A stretch of DNA of 42,399 bases from a virus. The notes under the pieces are model-generated. The model was not told the origin of the DNA and searched no databases. It worked only from the letters and a program-made list of their open reading frames with translations. Both the position numbers and the translations under genes were made by a program. Shown here piece after piece: positions 2,964-39,504 of the stretch. The stretch's first letter is position 1, and each line of letters begins with the position of its first letter. The stretch covers positions 1-42,399 of the IMG/VR virus record IMGVR_UViG_3300028104_000061. One strand, written 5' to 3'.

Positions 2964-2965
2964 GG

Positions 2966-4677: not shown

Positions 4678-5115
4678 CTAGCGCTCTGGCAGCTGGATTC
4701 GCACACGCAGCGGGCAGTTATCGCAGATGGTGTCGAACGTCGTGTGCTCGATCGGGTCGTAGTTGCCTACGTAGTCTGCACCGGAACTGCTCGGATCCCG
4801 CCGAGCACGAAGGAACGAAGCATGAGCCAGGCGTTCTGGATGTCGCCGCGGTGTTTTGCCGCGCATGGCTCGCTTGGTGGGTCCGTAGTAGGGAAGGCCA
4901 TCGCGGTCGGCATTTGGTTGTCGCGTTGCCGGCCCGGTGGTGAGCACCGTCATGCACCGTTTGGTGATGGTGATGACCATCTCTGCGACGAGCTGGTCGC
5001 ATTGCGGGCAGCGCCAGGGGAGGACGGCATACCGAAGGCCCGCCTGCCAGTCCTCGACGCCCTCGGGCAGCGTGGCATGAGGCTCTCCGGCGATCGCGTA
5101 GTAGACGGATGTCAC
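4678..5115 (-). CDS. Hypothetical protein with two CxxC pairs (zinc-ribbon-like)
   Basis: About 145 residues from GTG 5115, which overlaps the stop of the upstream recombinase in GTGA; an in-frame ATG at 5142 would overlap more. Two CxxC pairs lie far apart (PWRCPQCDQL near residue 35 and TICDNCPLRV near the end). They could jointly hold one zinc. The base composition here looks less GC-rich than in neighbouring genes. It sits directly behind an integrase-type recombinase, where recombination directionality factors are often encoded, but nothing in the sequence identifies it as one. Confidence 0.55.
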   Translation of the reverse strand: MTSVYYAIAGEPHATLPEGVEDWQAGLRYAVLPWRCPQCDQLVAEMVITITKRCMTVLTTGPATRQPNADRDGLPYYGPTKRAMRGKTPRRHPERLAHASFLRARRDPSSSGADYVGNYDPIEHTTFDTICDNCPLRVRIQLPER

Positions 5116-6341: not shown

Positions 6342-7857
6342 GCGGCCAGTCTAAACCTTCACCGAGTACCACAGCGTGGTCACCTGGGACCGCCTGGCCT
6401 GTCTCTCTCGTCGGGACGATGAGCTGGATCTCCACGAGTCCCTCCGTGACGGTGATGCGTTCGACCAGCTCGGCGAGCACGGCGCCGCGAGCGTCATGCG
6501 ACAGGACGGGCAGGTGCGCACGCAGCTCGGCGGCGGCCTGCTCCAGGTCCGCCATCCGCGCCCGGTGCGCGACCCGCGACCGGATCTCGATGAGCTCGTC
6601 GTCGATGAGTTTCCGGGCCTTGGCAGATCGCTCGAGCTCGGCCCGCGTTCCGGCGGCATCCCAGATGCCCTGCCGGAAGCCATCGCGCACACGCGCGTCC
6701 TCGGCGTCCAGCTCCGCGAGGCGCCGCTCCAGCTGGGCGATCCGCAGCTCCGGCTGATCGGTGTCATGGCCTTGGGCCTCGACCGCGGCGAGCGCGGTCA
6801 CCGGATCCTGCAGGAAGGCCTCCACGACCGACCAGACGATCCCCTCTAGGCGCTTGGCGGTCCAGCCCTTGTTCGCGCAGTCGCGCAGTCGCTTGGGGTG
6901 GTGCCAGACGCCGCAGCGGTAGATGCGCTGGGACGAGGCATAGCCGGCCACGTAGCGCCGCCCGCACTTCCCGCAGACGACAAGGCCACGCAGGATGTTG
7001 AGCGGTCCGTCCGCGCGCTTGCGGGTGGCGATGTTGCGGCTGATCTGCAGCCGATGGGCCTGCTGCTCGGCCGGCGTGAAGATCGCGGGCACCGGGACCA
7101 CCACCTCGCTGCCATCCCAGGCGTGGTAGACCCACTCGCCGGCGTAGAGGCGGTCGGTCAGCACCTTCCGTACCTGGTCGGGGTACCAGGTGTTGGGCAG
7201 GCGCCGCGAGCCCTTGCGCACGATGCCGAGCGTGTCGTAGCGAGTACCCACGCCGTGGAGGCTGAGCCGCTCGGCGATGCGCCCGGGCGTGATGCCCTCG
7301 AGCAGCCACTCGCTCATGCGCCGGCACCAGGCCACCTCGTCGGGCACGAGCACGTAGCGGCCGTCCTCGAGGGCGAAGCCGAAGGCGGCGATGCCGCCGT
7401 TCTTGCGGCCCTCGACCGCGGCGCGGTGCTTGGCGCCCCGCCGCGCGCGCTCGCCGATGCGCCGGCGCTCGATCTTGGCGAAGGCGGCGAACATCGCGAA
7501 CAGGGCGTCGCCCTCGGCGGTGTCCTCGAAGCGGGCGCCGGTCTTGGCCACGTAGAGGGCGACGCCGCGCCCGATGACCTCGCGATAGACGACCTGGTAA
7601 AGATCGGCCTGATCACGGCTCAGGCGGTCGATGTCGTAGACGACGAGGGCCTCGTGTAGGCCCGCGGCGAGGGCCTGGCGGAGCCTCGACATCGCCGGGC
7701 GCTCGAGCGTCCCGCCGTGGAAGCCGTCGTCGGCGTAGCGTTCGATGGTGCCTTCCAGGCGCAGCGCGAAGGCCTCCAGCGCGGCGACCTGCGAGTCGAT
7801 CGTCTGCTCGCGCTCCTGGCGCTCCGACGAGACTCTGGCGTAGAGCGCGATACTCAC
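6028..7857 (-). CDS. Large serine recombinase 1, with an abnormal C-terminal read-through
   Basis: 609 residues from GTG 7857 (GTGA overlap with the upstream gene). Catalytic Ser10 lies in LYARVSS, YDIDRLSRDQ at about 74-83 and FAAFAKIERRRIGERARRG at about 123-141. The recombinase domain is at about 150-280, the zinc ribbon at C295/C298 and C315/C327, and a coiled coil with leucines at about 370-450. Homology-like sequence ends near residue 488 (IVPTRETG). The remaining 120 residues are arginine-rich and are simply the other frame of recombinase 2. The natural stop therefore seems to have been lost, or the two genes were fused by an insertion or deletion near 6342-6400. The protein may still be active, since its domains are complete. 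Confidence 0.8.
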   Translation of the reverse strand: MSIALYARVSSERQEREQTIDSQVAALEAFALRLEGTIERYADDGFHGGTLERPAMSRLRQALAAGLHEALVVYDIDRLSRDQADLYQVVYREVIGRGVALYVAKTGARFEDTAEGDALFAMFAAFAKIERRRIGERARRGAKHRAAVEGRKNGGIAAFGFALEDGRYVLVPDEVAWCRRMSEWLLEGITPGRIAERLSLHGVGTRYDTLGIVRKGSRRLPNTWYPDQVRKVLTDRLYAGEWVYHAWDGSEVVVPVPAIFTPAEQQAHRLQISRNIATRKRADGPLNILRGLVVCGKCGRRYVAGYASSQRIYRCGVWHHPKRLRDCANKGWTAKRLEGIVWSVVEAFLQDPVTALAAVEAQGHDTDQPELRIAQLERRLAELDAEDARVRDGFRQGIWDAAGTRAELERSAKARKLIDDELIEIRSRVAHRARMADLEQAAAELRAHLPVLSHDARGAVLAELVERITVTEGLVEIQLIVPTRETGQAVPGDHAVVLGEGLDWPHDQAARRLHPQVEGHQRSARELGRAGARGPRTRGAPRGQRRAPGAPIRLVEIGPSRQDASTRRLHALEVNDQRGQGLSAVRLLPLATWPVGLRTEQPIRRLRGA

Positions 7858-14418: not shown

Positions 14419-17400
14419 TCAGGCCTGCGCGGCAGTCCTTTCCCAGAGCCGGGCCACGAGTGTGTCAACCTGCAGTTCGAGGGAATCGAGGGTGTTGGTG
14501 GCGCCGCTAGCCACCGCCGCCGTGCATCGCTTCGCCTGATGCGCGAGGCCGTTGTGTAATTCATTGCTGGGGTCGAATTGCGGAAGATCGACAAGGTCCA
14601 GAACCTCGCCGTGCGCTTCGCTGGAGATAGCCGAGTTGATGCGTGTACGAGCTTGGCTGCTGTTCAGAACGGAGCACACATAATGGGCTTCGTCCTCGTC
14701 GTCGAAGCCAATCATCATTACCTTTCCGTTCGGTACAACTGTTGCCGCCCACCCGCTGACGTCGAGCGTCGATACGACCGCTGCCTCGAAGTTGCGTGTC
14801 GTTCTCTTCCAAACGACCTTCCAACGAGCAAACGTATAGGGGCCGATGTCGTAGAGTGCATAGTAGGGATTAGCTCGTCCCCATCTGCGGTGTATGGGCC
14901 GAGTTTCTAGCTCCGCCTTGAACGAGCCGAGGTATGCGTGCGCTTTTGGGAAGTCTCGCCGCATGACTTCCTCGGGAATCGGCCTTATGCCCGTCTCATG
15001 TGTGTGGGGCACCAGATAGAGGCCGGGCGAGACGGCTCTCCAACGCGTGATGCTTGCGCCAGATACGTATGGAAACAGCCGGGAGGTCTCTATCTCGGCG
15101 ATTCGGGACTGGACGGGCCTTCGAGCTCGGTCCCGGATATTCTCAACCAGTATTCGCCCGCCAGTGGGGGCTCCAAGGGGACGAACCCGATACACACTCT
15201 CCAGCCCTGTCTCGACGCCACGCCGCGCGCGGTAGGGGGAAGTGGCTATCCGCTCCTCGTCCGGCAGGTGGGCGTCTGAGATCGTCCAGAATGACCCACG
15301 TCTTCCGGAGTTCGACGGTCGAGCTTTTAGCTCGCGGGCTGATGTCCGCTCACGGACGGTCGCCAGCGAAGCTGAGTCGCGATCAAACCGTCCAGAAGGC
15401 GTCCATACCCTATAGGGCACCGGGTATGCCGTCTCTTCACCTCGGACCGCCACGAACGTTGCGGTCTTGTTTGCAGCTGACTTGAATGGTCGCACTCGCA
15501 CCCAGTCGTCGACGCTCTTGACGCCGATCGGCACACCTCCAGGTAGCTGCCATTCCCTAAATTCGTCAGCGGCGGTTGACTGGAAGAGAGTCTGCGTTAT
15601 CACGAATCCGAGGCGACCGCCATTCTTAAGGTAGCGATCTAGGCTCACATACACGAAGAGCGCACTCAGGTCTTTACCAGCAGATCCCAGGCGCCGCATA
15701 GTCGACTCCCCACCTGCGGCCAAGCGATAGACGTCGACCATTACACGCTTGACTTCTTCGCGATAGGCCGGGGGGAGCGTTGTCCAGAAGACCCAAGGAG
15801 GGTTGCCGACAACAAAGTCGACGCGGTCCTGGAAGACGGGGGCGAAGGAATTGCGAATGATGCTGGCCCAGACCCCATCGGAACCAGACCTCGCGAGCTC
15901 GTCTAGGTAAGCGTAGAGGTCGCGGTGAAGCGACTCATGCTGGATGCGAATGCCCCTCGCGGCCAGAGCGCTCAGGAATTCGTCAGGGCCTACTTCGTTC
16001 TCTATCGACGTCCGCAGGATATCGGAATAGGCGGCCATGGTAGCGCGATCGACCGTGACATCTCGAGGCACGACAAGTGAGCCGACAGATGTCCTCAATT
16101 CAAGGGCCTTGCCCAGTCCCCCGGCGAATAGCCCACCGTATTCCACCGGGGTGAGGACGGAATCACATAGGTAGACCGGAAGCTCTATGGCCATATCGGG
16201 CCGAAGCAGATCTCGCACGGCTATGAGGTAGTTGGTTCGCGCAGCCATGACCGCAAGAGGGCTGAGGTCGAAGCCGGTTACGCCCTTGAGGATCTTTGAC
16301 AAGAGCGCTTCCTCGTCAAGGCCGGACGTTTCGATGTTTGCCGAAAACCAAGCACGAATGCGAGAGATCGCAACCACCAGGAACGTGCCCGAACCGCATG
16401 CGGGATCCAAAAGCGTAACGTCAGGGTTCCCGTCGTATCCGACCTGATCCAAGACGAACTCGGCGAGCCAGTCGGGGGTGTAGTACTCACCGAGGCGATG
16501 CCGGAGCGCACGCGGAAGGAGCCTCTGGAAGAGATCCTTCATCAGGTCGCGTGCGGTGATGGGTGACACCTCTACAACCTCTGCGGAGTACTCCGCAGCC
16601 GTTTCAGCCGCGTGCCTGAGGGCGGTGCCGAGTTCGGGCGTCGGCGTCGAGACATACCAAGAAAAGACGCCGGGGTCGATGGCATTGACTGCTCCTGTCG
16701 ACGCCGTGAGCTGTCCAGATTCGAGCGCTTCGAAGCCTGACCAGACGTCGCCGCGTTCAGTAAGCCGCGATAGGAGCCGCTCGCCCGTGACGCCCTCGAG
16801 AACCACGAGGCAAACGAGCTTGGAGACGATCCCGAAGTACGTCTGGAGGGCGAATAGGACTTGAGGTCTGCGGGCAACGTCAGGTGGTACGCGCAGTGTT
16901 GTGCAAAGTGCAAGCCAGTCCGGGACGTCAAGCTCGGCGGGTAGGCCGGCGGCATTAGCAAGGTCGAGCGCCCACTGGGAGAAGAGGGTCTGGGCTCGCG
17001 GCGAGGGTTCGCGACTGGTCAAGACTCCAACGAGGGCCGCGACGACCTGTTGGGCAACAGCGCTCTCGGGCCCGAAGTCCTCGGCGAGGTTTTCCGCCAT
17101 CAATCCTCGGCCTGTGGAAAGTGATTCCAGAGTGGCCACAAGTGCGTTGAGAGCGTCTACGTCAACCGGACGCGGACGCGACACCTGCCACTGATCGGCG
17201 GAATACGAGACGTAGATGACCCACGAGCCATCAAACGCGCAGCCGGCAAGTCGCTCGAGCGGTAGGCGAGCCCCCTCAGACAAGCCTCGGAGGTATTGCT
17301 GGACCTGGGTGACGGCGTGGCGGGTGGCCGAGTGCATGACCGAGGGTCGCAGAGAACCCGGCGGCTCGAATTCGATCACGAACCGGTTGTAGACGGCATC

Positions 17401-17685
17401 GGCCCGACCGAAGGTGAGCAGGGGTGCGTCCAGTTCATGGGCATCGGCTGCAGCCGGGATGGCGAGCCGAGCCTCGTCGCGAGCGGATGAGCGAGCGCCT
17501 CGGGCCCTCAGAACATCTGCAAGGACCGGTTGAACTTCACCTCGCAGCGTGGCCTCTGGTGCTTGGGATCCCACTGCATGCTCACGACCGCGAGCGACCG
17601 CTGCCAGCAGCAGCGCACCGTCATTGCTCTGCATCACTCTCGAGCAACTTCTGGACCGGTCGGGACGAGGCTTGCTACGTGTCAC
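14419..17685 (-). CDS. Large Eco57I-like N6-adenine DNA methyltransferase with degenerate N-terminal nuclease motif
   Basis: 1088 residues from GTG 17685 (GTGA overlap with herA), last gene of the cassette. The N-terminal 170 residues contain GRADAVYNRFVIEFEPPG. Asp96 and Glu105 fit a PD-(D/E)XK site, but the Lys position is Glu107, so cleavage by this domain is doubtful. The methylase core is GEYYTP (399-404), DPACGSGTF (motif I, about 427-435), GFDLSPLAV (about 471-479) and NPPW (628-631), giving N6-adenine specificity by family. Residues from about 640 onward form a long target-recognition region. The size resembles type IIG or PglX-like enzymes. Its likely role is marking self DNA for the HerA-NurA machinery beside it (inference). 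Its GC looks lower than in phage genes. Confidence 0.85.
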   Translation of the reverse strand: MTRSKPRPDRSRSCSRVMQSNDGALLLAAVARGREHAVGSQAPEATLRGEVQPVLADVLRARGARSSARDEARLAIPAAADAHELDAPLLTFGRADAVYNRFVIEFEPPGSLRPSVMHSATRHAVTQVQQYLRGLSEGARLPLERLAGCAFDGSWVIYVSYSADQWQVSRPRPVDVDALNALVATLESLSTGRGLMAENLAEDFGPESAVAQQVVAALVGVLTSREPSPRAQTLFSQWALDLANAAGLPAELDVPDWLALCTTLRVPPDVARRPQVLFALQTYFGIVSKLVCLVVLEGVTGERLLSRLTERGDVWSGFEALESGQLTASTGAVNAIDPGVFSWYVSTPTPELGTALRHAAETAAEYSAEVVEVSPITARDLMKDLFQRLLPRALRHRLGEYYTPDWLAEFVLDQVGYDGNPDVTLLDPACGSGTFLVVAISRIRAWFSANIETSGLDEEALLSKILKGVTGFDLSPLAVMAARTNYLIAVRDLLRPDMAIELPVYLCDSVLTPVEYGGLFAGGLGKALELRTSVGSLVVPRDVTVDRATMAAYSDILRTSIENEVGPDEFLSALAARGIRIQHESLHRDLYAYLDELARSGSDGVWASIIRNSFAPVFQDRVDFVVGNPPWVFWTTLPPAYREEVKRVMVDVYRLAAGGESTMRRLGSAGKDLSALFVYVSLDRYLKNGGRLGFVITQTLFQSTAADEFREWQLPGGVPIGVKSVDDWVRVRPFKSAANKTATFVAVRGEETAYPVPYRVWTPSGRFDRDSASLATVRERTSARELKARPSNSGRRGSFWTISDAHLPDEERIATSPYRARRGVETGLESVYRVRPLGAPTGGRILVENIRDRARRPVQSRIAEIETSRLFPYVSGASITRWRAVSPGLYLVPHTHETGIRPIPEEVMRRDFPKAHAYLGSFKAELETRPIHRRWGRANPYYALYDIGPYTFARWKVVWKRTTRNFEAAVVSTLDVSGWAATVVPNGKVMMIGFDDEDEAHYVCSVLNSSQARTRINSAISSEAHGEVLDLVDLPQFDPSNELHNGLAHQAKRCTAAVASGATNTLDSLELQVDTLVARLWERTAAQA

Positions 17686-19409
17686 CAGCCGTTCGCGAGC
17701 TTGGCCTCGTCAAACGACGTGTAGACCGACAGGAACACCGGGGCGCCGGTGAATGACAGAGGCGACACCGGACCAGTGAGCATGAATGGATACTCGGAGG
17801 GCCGGATAGCGGCCGGGTCGACGAACGACCGATACAGGTCTAGGGCCGCCGGGTCACTGATCGTTTCGCGCAGTCGCTGGAGCTCCGTGCCGGCCGTAAG
17901 GCCGTAACCGAAGGCGCGCACGCGCAGCTGTGCGTATATTGCCCGCCTCAGGGAACTGATCTCTTGTGTGATGAACATCCATCCTAGCCCGTACTTACGT
18001 GTCGTCCGCACGTAGTCCACGAGCCGATCAGCGAGAAGCTTAGTTTCGTCCTCTTCGGCAGCCTCGGCGGCGAAACGCTGTGCCTCGTCGAACACAACAA
18101 GTGCGTTCATCCGGCCACCTTTCTGAAAGAGCTGTTCCGCGCGCAGGTTAAGAATCGAACAGACCTCTCGGAGAATTCGCGCCTTTACCGAGGTCGTCTC
18201 GAGAAGACCACCGCCCGCCCCGCCCGAGAAGTCGATTATCACGAGCGGTCGCGGTCCGCTTGTAGATAGCGCTTCCTCGAACACAGTAAAGATGCTGGTC
18301 CTCCTGTTTCCCGATCGGTTCGTCGGGGCAAACAGTGAGTGGAGAGGCCGGAAGAACTCAGCCGCGATTTCGAACTCCGTCGTTGATGTTAGAAGCGAGT
18401 TGATCGCTCCAACCAGCCTCGCCTGCGACGTGGTGGATGAATAGATGCGTTGAAGCGCCAGTTGGTCGTTCACGAGGTTGGAGAGAGCGTCGCGCAGCAC
18501 GTCATCCGCAGGTCGGTCGTCCCAGCCGGTGAGGCCACGGAGGATGCGCGCGAGCTCGGCGACCGCGGAAGCGCGATTCTCCTCTCCCTTGATCGTGAGG
18601 ATGTCGCGAAGGAGGCGCGTCGGCTCGAGCAGATCGGCCAGCAGGCCAGCGTCCTGCCGCAGCCTCAGGTCGTTCGCGATGCCATACGTCCGCACAACGC
18701 GGCCCCTGGACTCTGCCCACTCCTGCAGCGAGAACGGGAGGCCCTCCTCGCTCGTGAACTGGCCTTGGGGATCCATCACGAGGATCGACAGCTGTGGGTG
18801 GGTGAGCTGCGCCGCGATCACGTACGTCGCCAGGGCCGATTTCCCGCTGCCTGTCATGCCGAAGATGCCGGAGTGATAAGCCTCTCCCGCCCCACCCTCA
18901 TCAGCGGGTCCGAAGTGCCGAAGTGTCAATGGCAGGCGAACGTTGCTCTTGTAGATGCGACCGAGGTACGTGATCTCGCCGACATGCCTTCGTAGGAGCT
19001 GGGTCAGGAACTCGTCGGACACCGGGGCCACTGCAGCGCCGGTCGTCGGAGACATGGTGAGCGCTCCGCCTGCCTCGACCGGTGGCTCGCCAATGGATGG
19101 ATCTGGGGCTTCGGCCAAATAGGCGGCTTGCACGAGCACCTCGGCAGTTCTCACATCGCCGACGGCACTTAGGTGGGGGAGCGAGCCATGCTTCTTGAGA
19201 ACGCCTCGCATGTTTGGGTCCTCGTGCCACCGGTTGGCGGTCTCGATTTCGGTGACCGTGCCGATTGCAATCAGGGTCTTGTCCAGCATCGGGTGAGTCA
19301 GGTAGACGAGACTTCCATGCAGCGGGGACCCAGTCGCGTTCTCGAGTATGTCCACGGTCGCCTTCGCAGTCGTGCTTGGTGAACCGACTAGCCCAACCGG
19401 ATCGTTCAT
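17682..19409 (-). CDS. herA: HerA-like hexameric DNA translocase (FtsK/HerA ATPase)
   Basis: 575 residues from ATG 19409, overlapping the nurA stop by one base (TGATG). The N-terminal 140 residues form a beta-rich HAS-barrel-like region (GSLVYLTHPMLDKTLIAIGTV). The ATPase has Walker A GMTGSGKSA (184-192), DPQGQF after strand 2 (213-218), Walker B LVVFDEAQRF (437-446), and GLGWMFITQEIS (474-485) as the sensor strand. HerA hexamers pump double-stranded DNA and work with NurA in end resection; in bacteria many HerA genes belong to defence systems. Here it is sandwiched between nurA and a methyltransferase. Function as a translocase is secure; defence is inferred from context. Confidence 0.88.
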   Translation of the reverse strand: MNDPVGLVGSPSTTAKATVDILENATGSPLHGSLVYLTHPMLDKTLIAIGTVTEIETANRWHEDPNMRGVLKKHGSLPHLSAVGDVRTAEVLVQAAYLAEAPDPSIGEPPVEAGGALTMSPTTGAAVAPVSDEFLTQLLRRHVGEITYLGRIYKSNVRLPLTLRHFGPADEGGAGEAYHSGIFGMTGSGKSALATYVIAAQLTHPQLSILVMDPQGQFTSEEGLPFSLQEWAESRGRVVRTYGIANDLRLRQDAGLLADLLEPTRLLRDILTIKGEENRASAVAELARILRGLTGWDDRPADDVLRDALSNLVNDQLALQRIYSSTTSQARLVGAINSLLTSTTEFEIAAEFFRPLHSLFAPTNRSGNRRTSIFTVFEEALSTSGPRPLVIIDFSGGAGGGLLETTSVKARILREVCSILNLRAEQLFQKGGRMNALVVFDEAQRFAAEAAEEDETKLLADRLVDYVRTTRKYGLGWMFITQEISSLRRAIYAQLRVRAFGYGLTAGTELQRLRETISDPAALDLYRSFVDPAAIRPSEYPFMLTGPVSPLSFTGAPVFLSVYTSFDEAKLANGW

Positions 19410-20521
19410 CAGACTCCCTCGGTGCGGTAGGACCGGATCAAGAACTCGGCAATTTCGGGCCGGCCGAGGCCGCTGAGGGCCAGTTGAACGGCCGATTGCA
19501 TGGCGCTAAGACCCAGTCCCACTGATTTGGCCATGACATCGGCCAGGTATTGGGGATATGGCTCCCGCACGAAGGGCCCGGTGATCTGCGACGAGATCGT
19601 GGCGCAGATGGTGTCCAGTACCTGCTCGTCGAGGCCGGCCTTCAGCTCGATGCGGAAAGCTGGTGAGGCCTCATCGGGTTTGAAGTATGTGAACTCGACA
19701 GCGCGCTGCTTGAGCGGGACGATGGAGTTCTCGAGGGCAGCCGCAATCGCATCATCCTGTGGCTCTCGCGAGTCGAAGTGGAGCGACGACCATGGGTCTC
19801 GCGGGACCTGCTGACCAACGAGCAACTCACCCGGTTCAAGCAACAGGCCCATGAGGTGCTTGTCGTCTCCGGGAATGTCGGTGCCCACCCTGCTTTGCAG
19901 AGCTTCGGTTACGACTCGCGACGAGTCGTACTTAGGCATCGCAATAATCGATGGTTCGAGACACGCTCGGGTCAGAGCCGCCACGGTGTCGAGCTTCTGC
20001 CACATGCGCTTCGCCTCTCGGCGGACATCGCTGGAGAGCGCGGTCAGGGCGGAGTTCAGCTGGATGACGAGCGTGAGATGCGAGCCGTCGAGGATCTTCA
20101 AACGGTGCGGCGCGCCGGCGAGGATCGCAAGCTCCTCGGCAACCATAACTCCTCGCGCCAGCCGCTCGACGTCCATGTCGTGTTTGGCAGGCAGCGCCCA
20201 CCACTGGTATTGCGGCGATTCCCATGACGTGGTCTCGTCAGAGAGGCCCTCGACGCCGACGGCGACGGCGAGGGCGAGATCGACAGCAGCGGTCCTTTCG
20301 ACCGCGAATCCGCCATCTACACCGGCGACCGTCACCGGTTGTGCCTCGCCTGCCTTCCTGATCAGCCCGGACTCCTCCAAGCCCGCCCGAAGCTGGTCGC
20401 GCTTGTCAAGCGCAGGCGCGAGCAGTGCCGTCACTGTCGCAACGACATCATCGCTGCCGCCGAGCAGATCGTGGAGCAGGTCCTCGGGCAGGCGAGCGTA
20501 GCCCTCTTGCCCGATGGTCAC
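19409..20521 (-). CDS. nurA: NurA-domain nuclease
   Basis: 370 residues from GTG 20521, four bases after the druA stop and preceded by a GGGGCTGAG stretch. NurA landmarks appear in order: Asp69 in VAGVDGGFAVE (first catalytic strand), ILDGSHLTLV (about 143-152, the second DG motif), IIAMPKYDSSRVV (about 192-204, the iSK-like motif with Asp199), and FRIELKAG near residue 310. NurA is a 5'-3' nuclease that forms a complex with HerA, which feeds it DNA. Immediate coupling to herA supports the pairing. The likely role is effector nuclease of the cassette, the more so because the nuclease-like motif of the methyltransferase lacks its Lys. Confidence 0.8.
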   Translation of the reverse strand: MTIGQEGYARLPEDLLHDLLGGSDDVVATVTALLAPALDKRDQLRAGLEESGLIRKAGEAQPVTVAGVDGGFAVERTAAVDLALAVAVGVEGLSDETTSWESPQYQWWALPAKHDMDVERLARGVMVAEELAILAGAPHRLKILDGSHLTLVIQLNSALTALSSDVRREAKRMWQKLDTVAALTRACLEPSIIAMPKYDSSRVVTEALQSRVGTDIPGDDKHLMGLLLEPGELLVGQQVPRDPWSSLHFDSREPQDDAIAAALENSIVPLKQRAVEFTYFKPDEASPAFRIELKAGLDEQVLDTICATISSQITGPFVREPYPQYLADVMAKSVGLGLSAMQSAVQLALSGLGRPEIAEFLIRSYRTEGV

Positions 20522-20525
20522 TTGC

Positions 20526-21686
20526 TCAGCCCCACAGCCGGTAGGACTCACGGGCGAACGACTCGTAAGTCCTGTCGGTCGATGCGCGGGGGAGGAACCA
20601 TCGCTCGCGGAACCACGAGGCGAGTTCAGTGGCTGGATGGTCGAAGTAGGCCAGCTCTTCTTCCTCGCCGCGCAGAACAGCTGCGGCATTGGCGGCGAGC
20701 GGCACGACGTAGATGTCGCGCTTCACTCCGTGGCAGTTCCACTCAGACGACAGTCCAACGTCAGCCAAGCACTTCTTAATCACTTCTCGCCGGTTCCGGA
20801 AGCCGCCTCCTCCGCCCCATTTCGCGTGTCGAGCCGTCGGGGTGCAGAACTGCAAGGCGTAGTCGCGCATGGCGGTGTAGATGCCATTGCTGAAGACCAA
20901 CTCGCCGGTGCCCTGGGTTGCTCCCGCGCGGACATACACGAGACGGCCGCGATACTTCAAACGGTTGTATATCGACGACCGGCCCAGGGCTGATGCGGTC
21001 GTCAGCATGGCCAGACCTGAGCCGGACTGTCGCGCCGAAATCAGCGTCTGCCGGTTAGCGTACTTCCCGAGGAATGTGTGACGAACCTCGTTACTGGCGG
21101 CCAGCAGGGCGACGAGCTTGCCAACAAGAAGGCTGGAGTACGGAGGCACGGCCCCCAGGACATATGCGTCCATGATGAGACGGAGGCGCTCGCGGCGCTG
21201 AGTTGCGCTCCAGCCGATCCAGCCGTCCCGGTCATGCAACGCATAGACGGGATCGCATAGTCCGATCAAGCCCACGAGCTTGTTGTTCGACTCATCGATG
21301 ACGAGGAAGCGAAGTCGGCGACCGTATCCGCGTGACGTTGGGATACTCCAATGAAGCCGGGCGTACCTGAACAGGGCTTCGCCCTCACTGTGACGCTCCA
21401 CCTCGACGAGGCGGGGGGCGAACGCTTCGGGGCGGACCTCCGTCCCCTCAGCGATGTACGAAAGCAGTCGGGACTCTTGTCGGCGTAGGCCTGATTCGGC
21501 CTCCTGTCTCGACTTCGCAACGGCCTGTACGTGAAGTCGGCGCGCGTCGTCCTTGGACGACAGGCGCGGCGGCAGGAGTCTGCCGTCCTCGACCAAGAAT
21601 CCTTGCGCTCCGAGCGTTTCCAGAATGAGCGAGCGGAGTTGGGCCCGCCACTCCTCGCGATCGGTTGAATGGCCCAGCGGCATCAT
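20526..21686 (-). CDS. druA: DruA family protein (DUF4338)
   Basis: 386 residues from the ATGATG at 21684-21686, first gene of the four-gene operon. The family signature is clear: YGRRLRFLVID (about 121-131), KLVGLIGLCDPVYAL (about 136-150) and RDGWIGWSATQRRERLRLIMD (about 153-173), with NRLKYRGRLVYVRAGATQGTG later. DUF4338 is the DruA component of Druantia anti-phage systems, where it accompanies a very large helicase (DruE). No such helicase is present here; NurA, HerA and a methyltransferase stand in its place. No Shine-Dalgarno is visible. TATCGT ends eight bases before the ATG, so the start may be leaderless. Confidence 0.8.
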   Translation of the reverse strand: MMPLGHSTDREEWRAQLRSLILETLGAQGFLVEDGRLLPPRLSSKDDARRLHVQAVAKSRQEAESGLRRQESRLLSYIAEGTEVRPEAFAPRLVEVERHSEGEALFRYARLHWSIPTSRGYGRRLRFLVIDESNNKLVGLIGLCDPVYALHDRDGWIGWSATQRRERLRLIMDAYVLGAVPPYSSLLVGKLVALLAASNEVRHTFLGKYANRQTLISARQSGSGLAMLTTASALGRSSIYNRLKYRGRLVYVRAGATQGTGELVFSNGIYTAMRDYALQFCTPTARHAKWGGGGGFRNRREVIKKCLADVGLSSEWNCHGVKRDIYVVPLAANAAAVLRGEEEELAYFDHPATELASWFRERWFLPRASTDRTYESFARESYRLWG

Positions 21687-21745
21687 TGGTACGGACGATA
21701 CCGGACAACAGGCGCTCCGACTGGCCTCTAGCGCTGGGCGAGTCG

Positions 21746-22465
21746 TTACTGCACGGCCACACCGAGGTCGTGGTGGACAGCCCGCCTGCTGGGCAGCCAG
21801 AGCGCTAGCGGCACGTCGTCTGACCGCGCGTGCGCCAGCAGGTCGCTCGCTCGCATCTCGACCGTGGCCGGGTTCGAGGCCGACATGACGTACTGCCAGC
21901 CGATGCCGCCTGCCGAGGTCTGATTGCCCGCCGTGTTGTTGGTGGTGTCGATCAGCCACGTGGTCGGCTCCGGGGAGCCTTCCCGCCAAATGCGCCCGCG
22001 CAGAGTGGTCGGACTCGATCCGAGGGTCTGGAGCTTCAGCCAGTACCACGCGCCCGCCACGAACGGGATGCCGGTGTCGGTGGTGTTCACGATCGTCGCC
22101 GTCGTTCCGGAGGTCCGCCTGACCAGATAGAGCTGGATGTTGCCGTGGGTCGCGCTGACCAGCGCCCGGAGCTGGTAGTTGGTCTGTTCCGACAGCACTC
22201 GGCCCATGACCGCGATCTGGTAGTCGCCCGTCAGCGGAGCGAGATCGGCGCTCCAGCGACCCATGATCAGCGCGTCGCCCATCCCCAGCCCGGTGACGTA
22301 CTTGTACCGCGCGTTCGCGTTCGAAGCCGAGGCGATGAAGCCGTAGCCCGCGGTGACCCCGCCTGCCGGTCCGACGCTGCTGTACGCGCCGCCCACGTCC
22401 ATCGACCCCCAGCCTGACCCCGAGGCGATCTCGCGGAGGTAGTGATCGACTGCGACCCGGCTCAC
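21746..22465 (-). CDS. Tail-tip or adsorption protein with LamG/concanavalin-like domain
   Basis: 239 residues from GTG 22465, in a GTGA overlap with the upstream tail gene; the much longer open frame above it is a shadow. The sequence is beta-rich with patterns such as TGDYQIAVMGRVLSEQTNYQLRALVSA, GAWYWLKLQTLG and TLRGRIWREG, followed by a QTSAGGIGWQYVMS turn. This is the signature of jelly-roll LamG/concanavalin-type domains that sense surface glycans. As the last gene of the tail operon it is probably a receptor-binding or accessory fibre component. It is the last phage gene before the cargo block. Confidence 0.65.
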   Translation of the reverse strand: MSRVAVDHYLREIASGSGWGSMDVGGAYSSVGPAGGVTAGYGFIASASNANARYKYVTGLGMGDALIMGRWSADLAPLTGDYQIAVMGRVLSEQTNYQLRALVSATHGNIQLYLVRRTSGTTATIVNTTDTGIPFVAGAWYWLKLQTLGSSPTTLRGRIWREGSPEPTTWLIDTTNNTAGNQTSAGGIGWQYVMSASNPATVEMRASDLLAHARSDDVPLALWLPSRRAVHHDLGVAVQ

Positions 22466-32436: not shown

Positions 32437-33255
32437 CTAGAGCGGCAGGTAGAGGACTGCTGCCGGGCGGACCACCTTGGCGCCGTAGAGATGGAGGCCC
32501 TTGACCGCGTCGGCGAAGCGCGCCTCGGGCCGAAACGCTTCCACCTTGTTGATCTGCTCGGCGTAGCTGACCGCCATCGGATGGCCGGCGATGACGTGCG
32601 GCACGGCCGGCGTGGCGTCGTCGCGGGCGTTGTTGCTCTTGAGGATGGCGAACCCCGCCGCCTCGCCGATCTGCCCGTTGAGCAGCCGCTGGTCGGCCGG
32701 CAGCGCGCCAGACGCCACGAACCGATCGTCCTGCAGCAGCAGGCCGTGGAAGGCGGGCGGAACGACCGCGTAGCGACCCGCGGTCGGCACGTCGGCCTCG
32801 TCGAGCTGGACGCCCAGCTCCACGAGCTGCACGTAGGCGTCGGTGGCAGTGGTGTTGGCCGCGGTGCCGTCGGCGATGATCCGCAGCGCGATGAAGCGGT
32901 CAGCCTTGTCGCGCATGCGGTAGGCGGCGTCGGTCATCGCCGCGTCGACCAGGCGGACGGCCGCCTGGCGGGCGTCGATGTCGTCGACCTGGAAGTTGAA
33001 GTAGTCGGCCTGGTCGATGACGAGCGCGGTCATGTCGTCGGCCAGGTCCTCGGGCGCGTCGATGTCGGTGTTCTTGGTGTAGGTCTTGACGGTGATCGCG
33101 CCGATGCCGCCGATGTTGACGGTGTCGCCCTTCTGGCTGATCTCGCCCTGGTAGTCGCGGTTGACCACGTTGGCCTGGCCGAAGACGAGCGCCTTCTGCA
33201 GGGCAGCGAGCAGCCGGGCCGTCCAGATCTGGGGAATGAAGCCGTCGACAGACAT
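32437..33255 (-). CDS. Major capsid protein (P22 coat-like, HK97 fold)
   Basis: 272 residues from ATG 33255, chosen over a longer reading because GGAGG sits at optimal distance. The opening FIPQIWTARLLAALQKALVFGQ, followed by GDTVNIGGIGAITVKTYTKNTDI and VIDQADYFNFQVDDIDARQA, is the common P22-coat-like capsid pattern of siphophages, as is the later YAVVPPAFHGLLLQDDRF. It is preceded by the scaffold gene, a promoter (33431-33458) and a hairpin leader. It is probably the most highly expressed gene of the window. Confidence 0.88.
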   Translation of the reverse strand: MSVDGFIPQIWTARLLAALQKALVFGQANVVNRDYQGEISQKGDTVNIGGIGAITVKTYTKNTDIDAPEDLADDMTALVIDQADYFNFQVDDIDARQAAVRLVDAAMTDAAYRMRDKADRFIALRIIADGTAANTTATDAYVQLVELGVQLDEADVPTAGRYAVVPPAFHGLLLQDDRFVASGALPADQRLLNGQIGEAAGFAILKSNNARDDATPAVPHVIAGHPMAVSYAEQINKVEAFRPEARFADAVKGLHLYGAKVVRPAAVLYLPL

Positions 33256-33381
33256 TTGGGATGCCTCCAGGAGGTGGGTAGGCCGTGGACCGGTTCTGCG
33301 CTTCACTTCCTGCGCGGGACCACCTGGGTCCTCACTGCGCGGCGGCCGCCTGGGCCGGGAGCGCGGCGCCCTCCTGGGGCT

Positions 33382-33403
33382 GTAGGGCGGCTAACCGCCC
33401 TAC
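33382..33403 (-). other. Perfect 9-bp inverted repeat in the capsid mRNA leader
   Basis: GTAGGGCGG and CCGCCCTAC flank a four-base loop (CTAA on the plus strand, TTAG on the transcript). It lies between the probable promoter at 33431-33458 and the coat-protein start at 33255. No T-run follows on either strand, so I read it as a structured leader or an mRNA-stabilising hairpin rather than a terminator. The 318 bases 33256-33573 otherwise hold no gene. Confidence 0.6.
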
Positions 33404-33430
33404 CCGAACATCTATTCTATTTCGGCCATC

Positions 33431-33458
33431 ACTGTAGCACTTTCGCCCGAGCGGTCAA
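33431..33458 (-). promoter_or_regulatory. Sigma70-like promoter for the capsid gene
   Basis: Read on the minus strand this is TTGACC (33458-33453), a 16-base spacer, and TACAGT (33436-33431). That is five of six matches to TTGACA and four of six to TATAAT. It would start transcription near 33424, giving a leader of about 170 bases before the coat gene that includes the hairpin at 33382-33403. A separate strong start for the coat gene is sensible because it is needed in large amounts. Confidence 0.45.
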
Positions 33459-33573
33459 GACACTCAGGGCCCATAAAGGAACGTCCAAGCGTGAAGGCTT
33501 GTGCATGGAAATGGCTTGTTCCGGTTGGGTACCATGGACACCCGCCCATGACACCACGCACGAGGAGGGATAG

Positions 33574-33864
33574 ATGGCTGCCCCGCGAATCCGACGCGTC
33601 TCATCCCGGCGCGAGATGGAGACGGTCCGCGACGACTTCATGACCACTGGCTACGAGGTCATCCGGGAAGGCGAGGGAACCGTGCTTATGCGGAAGAGCA
33701 CGTGGGGAACGACGGGTATGCATATCGTCGTCGCCCTGTTCACTGTTTGGTGGACGCTCGGCATCGGCAATCTGATCTATGCCCTGATTGCTCATTACAC
33801 GGCGGAACAGGTGCTGCTGAAGATGGAAGCGCCCGAAGAAGCGGCAGCCCAGCCCACTTCGTAG
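33574..33864 (+). CDS. Small membrane protein on the opposite strand (moron-like)
   Basis: 96 residues from ATG 33574, preceded by GAGGAGGGATAG, a strong Shine-Dalgarno. A basic N-terminus (RIRRVSSRREMETVRDDF) leads to GYEVIREGEGTVLMRKSTWG and then a hydrophobic hairpin MHIVVALFTVWWTLGIGNLIYALIAHY (about residues 49-75), one or two membrane helices. An acidic tail ends it. It is the only plus-strand gene inside the head operon, sits between scaffold and coat protein, and looks less GC-rich than they do. Such 'moron' genes are usually expressed from the prophage and alter the host; superinfection exclusion is one possibility. No specific family assigned. Confidence 0.7.
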   Translation: MAAPRIRRVSSRREMETVRDDFMTTGYEVIREGEGTVLMRKSTWGTTGMHIVVALFTVWWTLGIGNLIYALIAHYTAEQVLLKMEAPEEAAAQPTS

Positions 33865-33916
33865 GATGACTTCAGCGCCCTCGGAATAGACCCGTCGTCT
33901 TCCCGTCACAGGCTTC

Positions 33917-34558
33917 TCAGGCGCGAGCGCCGCGGGCGAGGAACTCCTGGATCTCGACCCAGCGCGAATTGATCTCGGCCGGCGTCATCTTTTCGATCTG
34001 CTCGCGCGTGAGACTCGACTTGCCGCGCGACCCTCCGTCGGCTGAGCCGCTGCCGCCAGCTGCGGCCCTGAACTCCGGGTAAGCCTCGAGCAGGCTCTTA
34101 ATCAGCGCGGGCACGTTCGTCGGCTCGCGGGCGTCCTCGAACTGGACCTCGGTCCGATCGATCAGCCGTGGTATCAGCGCCAGGCGGGCTGGCGCCACGC
34201 CGGCGGCAGCCGCGGCTTCCCTGATCGCCGCGGCGAGGAGCCGCTCCTGCGCAGCAGTCTCGCGCTCGGCCAGCTCGCGCTCCTTCTTGGCGACGTCGGC
34301 GGCGCGCTTCTCTTCCTCGGTCATCTGCTGCTTCGCCGCCGCCTCGAGAGCGTCGGCCGCCTTCCGGTGCTCGGTGCGCCACTTGGCCGCCTCGCGGCGC
34401 ACGTCGGCAAGGGCGGCGTCGAGCTCGGCCTGGCTGTACGTCTTCTCGCCCACCGGCGGCTCAGCCGGGTCCGTCGCGGGTGGCTTGGGTGGATCGCTCT
34501 CTGGCGCCTTGGGCGGCTCGCTCTCAGGCGTCTTGGGCGGTTCGTTCTGCGCTGGCAT
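33917..34558 (-). CDS. Capsid scaffolding protein
   Basis: 213 residues from ATG 34558 with AGGAG at good distance; its start overlaps the end of the terminase-portal ORF by 35 bases. The N-terminus is Pro/Glu-rich (PPKTPESEPPKAP). A long coiled coil follows (QAELDAALADVRREAAKWRTEHRKAADAL to about residue 120), and the end (LTREQIEKMTPAEINSRWVEIQEFLA) is the conserved C-terminal segment of siphophage scaffold proteins. It lies between portal and coat genes as expected. No protease motif was seen. Confidence 0.8.
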   Translation of the reverse strand: MPAQNEPPKTPESEPPKAPESDPPKPPATDPAEPPVGEKTYSQAELDAALADVRREAAKWRTEHRKAADALEAAAKQQMTEEEKRAADVAKKERELAERETAAQERLLAAAIREAAAAAGVAPARLALIPRLIDRTEVQFEDAREPTNVPALIKSLLEAYPEFRAAAGGSGSADGGSRGKSSLTREQIEKMTPAEINSRWVEIQEFLARGARA

Positions 34559-37457
34559 TGGCTTCTCCTTCTGCTCCGCCGACATCCGGCGGTGCCTGCA
34601 TCTGCTTCCAGGTGGCGATCTCCTGTGGACTGGCCGGGATGCGCGCCCAGATCGCCTCGGCGGGCACGCGGAGGGCGAGCATCTTTGTGAGCGCGTCGAT
34701 GTGCTCGCTCTCGGTGCGCGTCTCTGGATCCGTCCAATGCGCACGCAGCGGTGCCGCCGCCCACGTGAGATAGCGGTTGCGGGCGGCGTTGCTGACGCCC
34801 GCCTGGCTGGCTTTGATGCGGAACGCCAGCCGCATGGCCGCTTCGAGCGGGTCGCCGAAGTCCGACGCGCGCTCGCCCGCCTTCTTGGTCAGCCCGGCTT
34901 CGGCGCTGCGCAGGCTCTCGCCGGACGGCCACGAGCCCGAGCTGCCGAGGAAGTAGTGCGGCGGCGTCCGGCTGATCGTGGCTATGCCCTGCACGTAGGC
35001 CTCGTGCAGCTTCACGTAGCCCTCGAGGCTCGTCTCGGCGAACTCGCCGAAGCGCGTCTCGGGCTCGCCCGCCTCAGGCGGCGGCGCGGTGAAGATCGAA
35101 TCGACCGCCACCGCCCACGGCTCCTTGGGCTTGCCGGTCGCCTCGTCGACCTCGAGGCGGACATTGGTCGCCCACTTCTGGCGGAAGGCGCCGTATTGGC
35201 CCGCCAGCATGACGTTGACCAGGTTGGCGTTGAGCGCGTCCTGGATGGGCACGATCTGGCGCAGCTCGGAGCTGCCCAGGCCGGCGATGTTGGGCCGGTT
35301 GGGCAGCGCGAACACCGGCACCTCCAGGAACGGGTTGGGCAGTGGCCACGGCTCGCCGGCGACCTCGCGCGGCGCCCAGCCGACCAGGTCAGGCGCGGAA
35401 CCGGCGGGGCCCGCGCCACCGCCGCGGTAGAAGGCGCCGGGCAGCTCGCCCACGCCGCCGCCGGCTTCGGGCTGCGTCGTCGTCGACTGGTACTTGAAGA
35501 TCCCCTCGGGCAGGTAGAGCGTGGCATAGGTGCGCCGCTCGTCTTCGTCATACCAGCGCTTGAGCGCCGCCCGCCGCACGCGCTTGTCGGCCGGGTCGAC
35601 GGCGACGACCAGCTGGGCGCCGTCCTCGACGGTCAGGCGCGGCTCGCCGGTGGCGTCAGGCCAGACGATCAGCCCGAACTCGCTCTTGACCAGCGCCGAG
35701 CGCGTGCCCCGGCTGAACTCGTCGTCCATGCCGCTGCGCTGCCAGATCTCCCACGCCGCGGCCGACGCGCGCGCGTCGCTGCCGAGCAGGAAGCCGTCGA
35801 GATTGAGCCGCTCGTTGAGCGCGTCGACCACGACGCTGCAGTAGTTGATGCGCAGGTCGCGGAAGTCGCGGCCGAATGCCTCGAGCAGGCGGGCCAGGAT
35901 GAACGTCGCCCGGTGCTGGCCGTCGTAGTAGTTCTCGTACAGCGCCATCGCGCCCTGGCGACCGATGAGCCGGCGGTTGAGCAGCGTCAGCCACTCCTCG
36001 GGCGTCCTGGCCATCGCCACGGCGGCGACGTTGGGGCGCGTCGAGCCGTGCTTGCTGCGCGTGACCTTCATGCCCCGATCGGTCAGCACCGCCGTCGTGT
36101 TGGCGACGTGTTCGGCGAGGATCGGGTCGGCCTCGTGAACGAGGCGGCCGGTGGTGATGAGCTCGTAGGCGAGCGTCGAGGGCGGACCCATGACCGCCGC
36201 CGTCATCGGCACCTCGACCATGTTCAGACCCTCACCCTCGAGCATCTCGGCCGACTCGCCGAACGCCTGGCGGTCGTAGGCGAAGGCGGGACCAGGCAGA
36301 GCCCGCTTGGTCCGCTCGTCGCGTGCCTGCGGCAGCGGGTACTCCGCGCGGAGCTCCCGCAGCTGGGCGCGCATCGCCTCGCTGCTGGCCATGCCGGTTG
36401 CCGACTCGGCGGGGAACACCTGCGCCCTCACCACGACGCGGTCGCCCTGGCGCTGGGCGATCGCGATCGCGCCCTGCTCGCCCGACGGGCTGCGATCGAT
36501 GCCGACACCGATCGGCAGCGCGGCGTTGAGCGGCAGGTCACCAGTCGTGTCGCGCCAGGCGCCGTCGCGCAGCCAGGCGTCCTCAATGCCGACGAACTGG
36601 TTGAGGTGGTAGCGGCGCCATTCGAGGAGCGCGCCACGCGCCCGCAGGCGCGCGAACTGGGCGGAAAGGTACTTGCCATCGTGGAGCCAGCTGACCGGGT
36701 TGGCCGCGAACCAGACCGCGGGATCCTCGATGTCCGCGTCGCGCGGCGCGCCGTACCAGTAGATGAGCGTGCCGTTGACCCGATCGCGGTAGACCAGGAG
36801 CGAGCCGCGGTCCTCGAGCTCGCCGGTGCCTGAGAACATCGACTCGTAGAGCTCGGCGAGGATGCCCTCGCCCGCCACGCCGGCCGTCGTGATCCAGAGC
36901 GTGAACGGCTGCTCGCGGGCGCCGGTGCCAGTGGTGAGGGCGGTGTAGAGCTCGCTGCTCTTGTGGGCATGCAGCTCGTCGACGATGTTGGCCGACGGGT
37001 TGAGGCCGTGCTGCAGCGCGGCATCAGAGCTGAGCGAGCGCATGATGCCGCCGTTGCGCGGGCACTCGATCGTGTAGCGGTGGGGGACGAGCCGATCGAG
37101 CAGCAGCGGGCTGCGGTTGACCATGCTGCGCGCCTGGCCGAGCACAATGCCGGCCTGATTACGGGCCGCCGCGGCGACGTAGACCTCGGGCTCGGGCTCG
37201 CCGTCGGCGTCGAGCATGTATAGCCCGGCCGCGCTGGCCATCGTCGACTTGGTGTTCTTGCGCGGGATGCCGAGGCCGATCTCGTTGTAGATGCGCAACC
37301 CTGTGGCAGGGTCGAACTCGAGCGCCTCCCACCAGAACTCGCGCTGCCACTCCTCGTAGACCAGCGGGCGGCCGGCCCAGCGGCCCTTGGTGTGGCGGAT
37401 GTAGCGCTCGCAGTAGGCGGCGAAGTGCGGGCCGCCGGTAAGCGCATCGGGAACCAC
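34524..37457 (-). CDS. Large terminase fused in frame to portal protein
   Basis: 977 residues from GTG 37457. Residues 1-481 are a complete large terminase: Walker A PRKNTKST (65-72), Walker B NIVDEL (157-162), nuclease strand IGVGIDRSPSGEQ (Asp321), a second Asp in FAYDRQAFGESAEML, and the closing HGSTRPNVAAVAMA. Residues 482-977 are a complete portal protein starting at MARTPEEWLTLLNRRL (an ATG at 36014) and continuing with YENYYDGQHR, INYCSVVVDALNERLNLDGF and PPHYFLGSSGSWPSGESLRSAEAGL (SPP1 gp6-like family). No stop or frame change separates them. The two are normally separate genes. They may be translated as one protein, cleaved, or re-initiated at 36014, where no Shine-Dalgarno is visible. 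Confidence 0.85.
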   Translation of the reverse strand: MVPDALTGGPHFAAYCERYIRHTKGRWAGRPLVYEEWQREFWWEALEFDPATGLRIYNEIGLGIPRKNTKSTMASAAGLYMLDADGEPEPEVYVAAAARNQAGIVLGQARSMVNRSPLLLDRLVPHRYTIECPRNGGIMRSLSSDAALQHGLNPSANIVDELHAHKSSELYTALTTGTGAREQPFTLWITTAGVAGEGILAELYESMFSGTGELEDRGSLLVYRDRVNGTLIYWYGAPRDADIEDPAVWFAANPVSWLHDGKYLSAQFARLRARGALLEWRRYHLNQFVGIEDAWLRDGAWRDTTGDLPLNAALPIGVGIDRSPSGEQGAIAIAQRQGDRVVVRAQVFPAESATGMASSEAMRAQLRELRAEYPLPQARDERTKRALPGPAFAYDRQAFGESAEMLEGEGLNMVEVPMTAAVMGPPSTLAYELITTGRLVHEADPILAEHVANTTAVLTDRGMKVTRSKHGSTRPNVAAVAMARTPEEWLTLLNRRLIGRQGAMALYENYYDGQHRATFILARLLEAFGRDFRDLRINYCSVVVDALNERLNLDGFLLGSDARASAAAWEIWQRSGMDDEFSRGTRSALVKSEFGLIVWPDATGEPRLTVEDGAQLVVAVDPADKRVRRAALKRWYDEDERRTYATLYLPEGIFKYQSTTTQPEAGGGVGELPGAFYRGGGAGPAGSAPDLVGWAPREVAGEPWPLPNPFLEVPVFALPNRPNIAGLGSSELRQIVPIQDALNANLVNVMLAGQYGAFRQKWATNVRLEVDEATGKPKEPWAVAVDSIFTAPPPEAGEPETRFGEFAETSLEGYVKLHEAYVQGIATISRTPPHYFLGSSGSWPSGESLRSAEAGLTKKAGERASDFGDPLEAAMRLAFRIKASQAGVSNAARNRYLTWAAAPLRAHWTDPETRTESEHIDALTKMLALRVPAEAIWARIPASPQEIATWKQMQAPPDVGGAEGEANASAERTAQDA

Positions 37458-37460
37458 GGC

Positions 37461-37952
37461 TCAGCCGGCATCGCCGACCACCCGAAGACGCGGGGGCAGA
37501 CCGATTTCGGCGGTCAGCGAGTCGAAGGCACGCTCGGGCTCGATCCGCAGGCCAGCCCGCGCCGAGGGCGACAGGCCGAGCTCGCGGGCGAGTCGTTGAA
37601 TCAGGTCGGCGTTGTCGCGGACAAGCTGGTGGAGGGGCGACTTCACCAGGTGGCCGCGGTCGCGCAGTATTGGCCCGCTGCCCGCGTAGAGCTTGACCGC
37701 CTGGGCATAGCGGCTGACCGCCTCGCAGTAGCAGCGCAGGACGTCGGCATCTGCCGCCCGGATGACGCCGGTGTGGCGCATGTCGCGCACGACCCGCCGC
37801 CAGACCACCTTGGCGTCGGGATCCATATCGGCGGGCATCTTGGGCAGGTCGGCGGGCGGGATCGGCTCGTGGCGATTCAGCCGGCTCGGACGCGTCTCGC
37901 CACGCTGCCGCTTCACCCGCGTCGGGGTCGGCGTAGGGCCGCGCCGTCCCAT
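37461..37952 (-). CDS. Small terminase subunit (P27-family type)
   Basis: 163 residues from ATG 37952 (TGATG overlap with the methyltransferase gene). The opening MGRRGPTPTPTRVKRQRGETRPSRLNRHEPIPPADLPKMPADM, then VWRRVVRDMRHTGVIRAADADVLRCYCEAVSRYAQA, is the standard P27-type small terminase. The C-terminal half is helical and conserved (LVRDNADLIQRLARELGLSPSARAGL). It recognises phage DNA and loads the large terminase. It sits directly upstream of the terminase-portal fusion. Confidence 0.88.
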   Translation of the reverse strand: MGRRGPTPTPTRVKRQRGETRPSRLNRHEPIPPADLPKMPADMDPDAKVVWRRVVRDMRHTGVIRAADADVLRCYCEAVSRYAQAVKLYAGSGPILRDRGHLVKSPLHQLVRDNADLIQRLARELGLSPSARAGLRIEPERAFDSLTAEIGLPPRLRVVGDAG

Positions 37953-39412
37953 CACGCCACCGCCTTGGCTGCGGGCATCCGCTCGGCTTTGCCGCCGGTG
38001 AACTTCTCCCACCGCTCGACCACGACGTCGGCGTAGAGCGGGTCGATCTCCATGACGTAGGCCCGCCGGCCTGTCTGCTCGGCGGCAATGAGGGTCGAGC
38101 CCGAGCCACCGAACGGGTCGAGCACCGCCTCGCGCTCGAGCGAGCTGTACTCGATCGCCCGCCGCGCCAGCTCGACCGGCTTCTCGGTCAGGTGCACCAT
38201 CTGCTGCGGGCTGACCTTCTTGACCGGCCAGACGTCGGGCACGTTGGGCGGGCCGAAGAAGCGGTGGGCAGCGCCTTCCTTCCAGCCGTAGAAGCACCAC
38301 TCGTGCGCGCCCATGAAGTCCTTGCGCGTGAGCGTCGGGTGCTGCTTGTCCCAGATGATCGCCTGGCTGAAGTACAGGCCCGCGCCGAGAAGCGCGGCCG
38401 GGTAGTTGAGGACGTTGGCGTAGCCGCCCCAGATGTAGAAGGTGCCCCCAGGACGCATGACCCGGGCGGCGTTGCCAAACCACGCCGCCAGGCGCGCCGC
38501 GAACTCGTCTGCCGCGATGAAATCGCCGGTCAGCGGTCGGTCCTTCGGGCGCAGCTTGCGGTGCGTCGCCTGCGCCTTCTCGGGATGACGCTCCAGGTCG
38601 AGCTTCTGGTGGTGGCCGATGCCGGTCTTGCGGCGGGCGACGTCGAAGCCCGAGTGATGCAGACCCCGCGCGTCCAGCCGCTTGACGCCCGATCGCTTGT
38701 CGGAGAGGCCTCGGATGGCCTCGCGGTAGCCCTCGTCCCACTGGGCTGACATGCCGGCGGCGATGGCGTTGTTGCTGCGCGGTTCGACGCGCACGTTGTA
38801 GGGCGGGTCGGTCAGGAGGAGGTCGATGGTGGTGCCGTCGAGCAGGCGGTCGAGATCAGTCTGGCTGCCAGCGTCGCCGCACAGCAGCCGATGGTTGCCG
38901 AGCACCCACACATCGCCTGGCTGGGTGGTCGCTGCGTCGGGCGGGTCAGGGATCTCGTCGGGGTCGGTCACGCCCTCCTGGGGCTCGCGCGGCGCCAGGT
39001 TGGCGAGCATCGCCGCCAGCGCCTCCGAGTCGACCGCGACGTCGGCCAGCAGCGCGCGCAGCTTCTCCTCGTCGGTGCCGGCCATCGCGGCCAGAGGGTC
39101 GAGGCTGGCCAGCACCAGCGCCTCCTCCTCGGGCGAGAGGTCGACGTACAGGACCGGCACGGTCGGCGCGTCCTGGCGGATGGCGAGCGCGACCCGCAGA
39201 TGGCCGTCGACCACGTGGCCGGTGCGCCGGTTGACCAGCACCTGCTGGACCCAGCCGACCTGGCCCAAGACGCCGGCCAGCGCCTCCTGCTGCGCCTTCG
39301 GGTGGATGCGCCAGTTGGCCGGGTTCGCGAGCAGCTGGTCCGGCGCCTCCTCGCCCGAGCCGACGATGCGGTTGGCCCAGTGGGTGGCCGCCGGCGCGGC
39401 CGAAGGTGTCAT
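37952..39412 (-). CDS. ParB-like domain fused to beta-class DNA methyltransferase
   Basis: 486 residues from ATG 39412 (a TTG at 39451 is in frame but less likely). The N-terminal domain is ParB/Srx-like (NPANWRIHPKAQQEALAGVL ... VVDGHLRVALA). The methyltransferase has TDPPYNV (motif IV, DPPY about 202-205) before DPFGGSGST (motif I, about 432-440), the beta-class order for N4-cytosine or N6-adenine modification. A target region sits between them. Such fusions are common orphan modification enzymes of phages that protect phage DNA. It precedes the small terminase, its usual neighbourhood. Confidence 0.85.
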   Translation of the reverse strand: MTPSAAPAATHWANRIVGSGEEAPDQLLANPANWRIHPKAQQEALAGVLGQVGWVQQVLVNRRTGHVVDGHLRVALAIRQDAPTVPVLYVDLSPEEEALVLASLDPLAAMAGTDEEKLRALLADVAVDSEALAAMLANLAPREPQEGVTDPDEIPDPPDAATTQPGDVWVLGNHRLLCGDAGSQTDLDRLLDGTTIDLLLTDPPYNVRVEPRSNNAIAAGMSAQWDEGYREAIRGLSDKRSGVKRLDARGLHHSGFDVARRKTGIGHHQKLDLERHPEKAQATHRKLRPKDRPLTGDFIAADEFAARLAAWFGNAARVMRPGGTFYIWGGYANVLNYPAALLGAGLYFSQAIIWDKQHPTLTRKDFMGAHEWCFYGWKEGAAHRFFGPPNVPDVWPVKKVSPQQMVHLTEKPVELARRAIEYSSLEREAVLDPFGGSGSTLIAAEQTGRRAYVMEIDPLYADVVVERWEKFTGGKAERMPAAKAVA

Positions 39413-39504
39413 CTCGGACACATCGCTTGCATCGCGCCGCGAGTCGAGCAAGTCATGACGGGCGCCACGCCGAACGAGCGTGGGCGACCGAGAGGAGGCA
39501 CCCG

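Follow-up and report, generated by a model that had tools for sequence, protein, structure and literature searches.

Portal rings are built from 12 subunits and terminase rings from five (PMC5290284), and in the phages that have been studied the terminase normally departs from the portal when packaging is over (PMC4669245, PMC5290284). In P22, a large terminase subunit (TerL) from which residues 483–499, a segment rich in proline and basic residues, are deleted no longer binds the procapsid portal, and the same role of the TerL C-terminus in T3 and lambda is cited by the P22 authors (PMC5290284). In the literature that we examined, the naturally occurring portal fusions have MuF-like proteins as partners (PMC7302621, PMC5513430). 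Together with the protease–capsid fusions of actinobacteriophages, these portal–MuF fusions resemble the locus described here in that two head-assembly functions are placed in one gene, but they involve other partners and recur across phage clusters, whereas here a terminase is joined to a portal in one genome only.

The stretch analysed, referred to below as the window, spans a virus record in its entirety (42,399 bases); it is a single metagenomic record. Its terS–terL–portal–scaffold–capsid order and the homologous proteins are shared with IMG/VR relatives, with the Streptomyces phages Rowa and Success and with Arthrobacter phage Bridgette. In all of these terL and portal are separate genes, TerL carries a C-terminal tail and the portal has a start of its own, whereas in the window both of these features are lost and the two frames are joined. 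The TerL half is related in sequence and predicted fold to the HK97 large terminase (PDB entry 6z6d), but it stops within the last predicted helix of the family and continues into portal. The portal half is a sequence relative of the solved siphophage portal 9d94 (PF05133), which is a separate protein.

The fused reading frame and its junction

An earlier note had reported terminase and portal as a single 977-residue ORF at 34524–37457. This is borne out, and the frame lies on the minus strand, which the note did not state. The 977 codons are free of stops, and stops are present on the plus strand of the same interval. The parts of the ORF are as follows.

34524..37457, minus strand: fused TerL–portal ORF, 977 amino acids, GTG start at 37457, stop ending at 34524
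36015..37457, minus strand: TerL part, residues 1–481, HK97-type ATPase and nuclease domains
34524..36014, minus strand: portal part, SPP1-type, residues 482–977, near-complete
35997..36020, minus strand: junction, GTGGCG-ATGGCCAGGACGCCCGAG, with the Met482 codon of TerL joined to the portal start region

Using Pfam, TerL_ATPase (PF03354) is found at residues 55–206 of the fused protein with 80.2 bits (cutoff 23.7), and the Walker-type motif PRKNTKST and the acidic Walker B motif IVDE match those of relatives. TerL_nuclease (PF20441) is found at residues 232–481 with 22.8 bits, under its cutoff of 24. SPP1_portal (PF05133) covers residues 508–953 with 92.3 bits (profile positions 19–409 of 416). 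This domain is full-length, and the portals of relatives align along almost its entire length. PHROGs assigns residues 11–482 to the terminase large subunit and 472–972 to the portal. No second copy of TerL or portal was detected in the 42,399-base contig when it was searched with the fused protein.

The junction AVAMA/RTPEEW and the ATG at 36014 are present as the earlier note described them. The join can be recognized elsewhere by the sequence NVAAVAMARTPEEW, and its motif occurs once in the window compared with 0.00 occurrences expected from shuffles. The note had also seen a normal portal start still visible here; an ATG is indeed present, but as a start it is not normal, since it lacks Shine–Dalgarno pairing. 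The anti-Shine–Dalgarno pairing energy at ATG 36014 is +0.6 kcal/mol, compared with −3.5 to −8.5 kcal/mol at the portal starts of 22 relatives and a median of −2.4 kcal/mol at random positions of the window. The portal thus has no start with its own ribosome-binding site at ATG 36014, which from the sequence is not credible as a separate start.

A tolerated fused frame, in which initiation inside the fused gene still supplies a separate portal, is very improbable. In-frame ATGs do exist at residues 482 and 504, and the latter has weak Shine–Dalgarno pairing (−3.1 kcal/mol). The former is the unpaired ATG 36014, however, and initiation at residue 504 would remove the first 22 portal residues with pairing weaker than that at every portal start tested in relatives. 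Recoding or frameshifting to give two products was rejected: the junction has no stop to recode, and the internal starts are weak. Because the ribosome-binding site is gone with the missing segment and pairing at the internal ATG 504 is weak, the main product should be the fusion protein.

The terL–portal boundary in relatives

IMG/VR and the genomes of GTDB species were scanned and yielded 37 distinct contigs encoding both genes, with identities to the window of 63–94% for TerL and 33–59% for portal. A stop codon separates the TerL and portal genes in all 37. Close relatives with two separate ORFs, together with an error in the present sequence, had been listed by the earlier note among the observations that would speak against its claim, and the first part of this, the relatives with two ORFs, is what was found. 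The fusion itself, which the note had proposed to look for in related phages, occurs in none of the 37 contigs, whereas an established fusion such as portal–MuF would be shared among related genomes. The junction peptide was not found elsewhere in IMG/VR, in scans that may omit records very near the window's own.

Four relatives (L001, L016, L027 and L028) gave apparent frames of 1000–1045 amino acids, but a shared fusion was rejected as their DNA has at least one in-frame stop between the genes. In L001 (4796–4801) TerL and portal lie in the same frame with one TGA between them (VGF-stop-PMLDATR), such that read-through alone would fuse them; in L016 and in L027/L028 the two genes also share one frame with stops intervening. 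TAG recoding in L028 was considered and set aside, its main genes not requiring it. Close TerL relatives (L084, L085 and L086; 88–91%) occur in Chloroflexi MAGs, and these sequences suggest that the host of this phage group belongs to Chloroflexota.

TerL of the relatives extends 24–26 residues beyond the window's junction, ending in NVAAVAMVRAIAMAMLEPPPAPKPRVIGSFR and a stop or in a variant thereof, and the portal mostly starts at the TerL stop, as a TGATG or GTGA overlap. The window passes straight from NVAAVAM into ARTPEEW. In 21 relatives, 74–83 nt separate the codon equivalent to TerL Met482 from the portal start, and 107 nt are skipped when the DNA of the window is aligned with L015, the nearest relative by portal. 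The absent stretch (∼74–107 nt) is the one that in relatives carries the TerL stop and the portal ribosome-binding site. The statement of the earlier note that both halves are full length is therefore wrong, as the TerL half lacks the last 24–26 residues.

The structural position of the cut was located in a structure predicted for the intact L017 TerL (mean pLDDT 77.5; residues 481–490 at 94), whose best match among solved structures is HK97 6z6d. This model ends in a helix, 477–489, followed by a low-confidence tail. The fusion point falls in the equivalent of this helix, after residue 481/482, and the RNase-H-like nuclease domain is thus predicted to be incomplete, with its last helix severed. 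The additional residues of the relatives correspond to the second half of this helix, followed by a tail of proline and basic residues. The model of the fused protein, which is used for the junction pattern only (mean pLDDT 55.9 and poor in the TerL half, where the underlying alignment A2 is shallow), contains a short helix 477–482 that is separated by a break from the first helix of the portal, 486–511. Near the same helix, at TerL residues ∼474–478 (alignment A3), most family members carry Asn-Val in place of the Asp of more distant TerLs; as judged from the alignment, the whole family may lack one acidic nuclease-motif residue here.

The tail missing from the window is proline-rich and basic like that of P22, and by this analogy we infer that it would dock the portal in this TerL family. 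Its resemblance to the portal-docking segment of P22, T3 and lambda (PMC5290284) also favours a functional fusion, in which the portal replaces the TerL docking tail by a covalent link and the motor–portal works whole or after proteolytic cleavage. The frame is moreover open across both domains, the TerL residues conserved in relatives are retained and the remaining genome looks intact. Nor is there any sign of relaxed constraint on TerL: dN/dS with respect to its closest relatives is 0.09–0.12, similar to that of intact pairs, and six private changes fall at otherwise invariant columns, versus 0–9 in other members. The lack of relaxation would be explained if the event was recent, if the fusion works or if the join is an artefact. 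The functional reading is nonetheless unlikely, given that all relatives lack the fusion and the last nuclease helix is severed. The terminase is, furthermore, normally released from the portal once packaging ends (PMC4669245, PMC5290284) and the copy numbers differ, with 12 portal subunits and five terminase subunits (PMC5290284). A natural phage with its motor covalently part of the portal, in which the usual release would be impossible and the 12:5 mismatch would have to be accommodated by a single type of polypeptide, appears improbable.

Mosaic boundary and origin of the junction

The genes flanking the fusion, and the block to which its portal half belongs, are as follows.

37461..37952, minus strand: terminase small subunit gene terS, start taken at ATG 37952
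33917..34558, minus strand: scaffolding protein gene, start taken at 34558
32437..33306, minus strand: major capsid protein gene
32437..36014, minus strand: portal–scaffold–capsid block, best relatives L015, L020 and L026, unlike terS–TerL

The terS product and TerL match L002–L007 and L017 (74–80% and 92–94%, respectively). The portal is closest to L015, L020 and L026 (55–59%), as is the scaffold (44–50%), and a capsid relative is detectable there only (59–60%); no relative of scaffold or capsid was detectable in the available contig stretches of the L002–L007/L017 group. For the major-tail gene and those preceding it, the match is again to the L002–L007/L017 group. These similarities fit the swap of a head module with its left edge at the fusion. 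Boundary switching is common in the family, for example in L009 and L084, where a TerL of 89% identity occurs with a portal of 35%, and insertions of ∼0.5 kb are present between terL and portal in L017 (about 5521–6000) and L074 (about 2919–3485). As seen in these sequences, the terL–portal boundary is one that tolerates indels and gene insertions.

An assembly or amplification artefact, in which the contig skips a short boundary stretch or joins two strains and the real phage has two genes, is somewhat unlikely. The fusion is known from a single metagenomic contig, every relative has two genes, no independent copy was found and the best relatives switch precisely at the junction. However, only a few bases are shared at the join, and so short a shared sequence is too short for a k-mer join. 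The foreign block also has a second edge past the capsid gene, which is not explained by one chimeric join; boundary switching is seen in two-gene relatives as well, and no other frame damage was seen.

The explanation that we favour, with a probability of about 0.5, is a recombination or deletion scar that is private to this genome and probably impairs packaging. Through this event the terL 3′ end would have become continuous with the opening codons of the portal gene. The window reads GCG followed by ATGGCCAGGACG where TerL relatives have GCG followed by ATGGTCCGGGCG at the same place, and the portal genes of some relatives (L032 and L072) begin with ATGGC. The crossover may accordingly have used a short ATGG-type match, shared by the portal start codon and a Met codon that lies in frame close to the C-terminus of TerL, probably with or after the swap of a foreign portal–scaffold–capsid module into a phage with the present terS–terL. 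It would have removed the last 24–26 TerL codons, the TerL stop and the portal ribosome-binding site, such that one 107 kDa polypeptide replaces two proteins. Since the TerL Met codon is joined in frame to the portal start ATG, an open frame arises without selection.

The scar is favoured by the stop in 37/37 relatives and their longer TerL, the cut helix, the lost Shine–Dalgarno sequence, the edge of the module swap, the variable boundary and the absence of the junction from all other contigs scanned; against it stand the unrelaxed constraint on TerL, the intactness of the other genes examined and the reliance on one metagenomic record, with scans that may omit near-identical ones. The event was presumably recent. 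Packaging is probably impaired, given that the terminal nuclease helix is severed and the tail lost, and that a terminase would sit on each of the twelve portal subunits. A defective or crippled phage or prophage is the likely outcome.

A generally decaying prophage is not supported, as the other genes examined appear intact: terS, ParB–methyltransferase, scaffold, capsid, neck, major tail protein, tape measure, tail components and primase/AAA. The ParB-like domain joined to a DNA methyltransferase (37952–39451, minus strand) lies immediately upstream of terS, an arrangement shared by several relatives. Two adjacent serine recombinases (5112–6341 and 6028–7857, minus strand) occupy overlapping open frames, a pair that suggests a temperate phage. 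After the tail genes, a block at 14419–22049 (minus strand) resembles phage-carried defence cargo.

14419–17685, minus strand: type IIG restriction-methylase
17682–19409, minus strand: HerA-like ATPase
19409–20689, minus strand: NurA-like protein, weak match
20526–22049, minus strand: DruA/DUF4338 (E 4.5e-106)

Precedents and implications

No TerL–portal fusion is present among the INPHARED matches listed, which sample distant phages and show separate annotations or a portal gene alone, or among the IMG/VR relatives, where close neighbours of the window's own record may be missing. None was found in the open-access literature. The top match in BFVD is A0A0R8V092, with 768 amino acids. In 400 Chloroflexota genomes portal frames do not exceed 691 amino acids; the model used in this survey has 464 positions and is matched at portal length, and thus tests portal frames only. 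The arrangement is without precedent in the material searched and rests on one metagenomic record. From the interpretation in the earlier note, the fusion in the sequence and the lack of a precedent stand; two intact proteins acting as a working motor–portal are not supported, since TerL is truncated, the tail and the portal ribosome-binding site are lost and no relative has the arrangement.

If the fusion is functional, permanent tethering to the portal is compatible with a working phage motor, contrary to the dock-and-release model, and the phage would offer a naturally occurring means of testing the symmetry-mismatch question. If it is instead a scar, which is more likely, recombination between terL and portal easily yields in-frame fusions, because a Met codon joins a start codon, and this would call for caution in reading fusions from single contigs as new machines.
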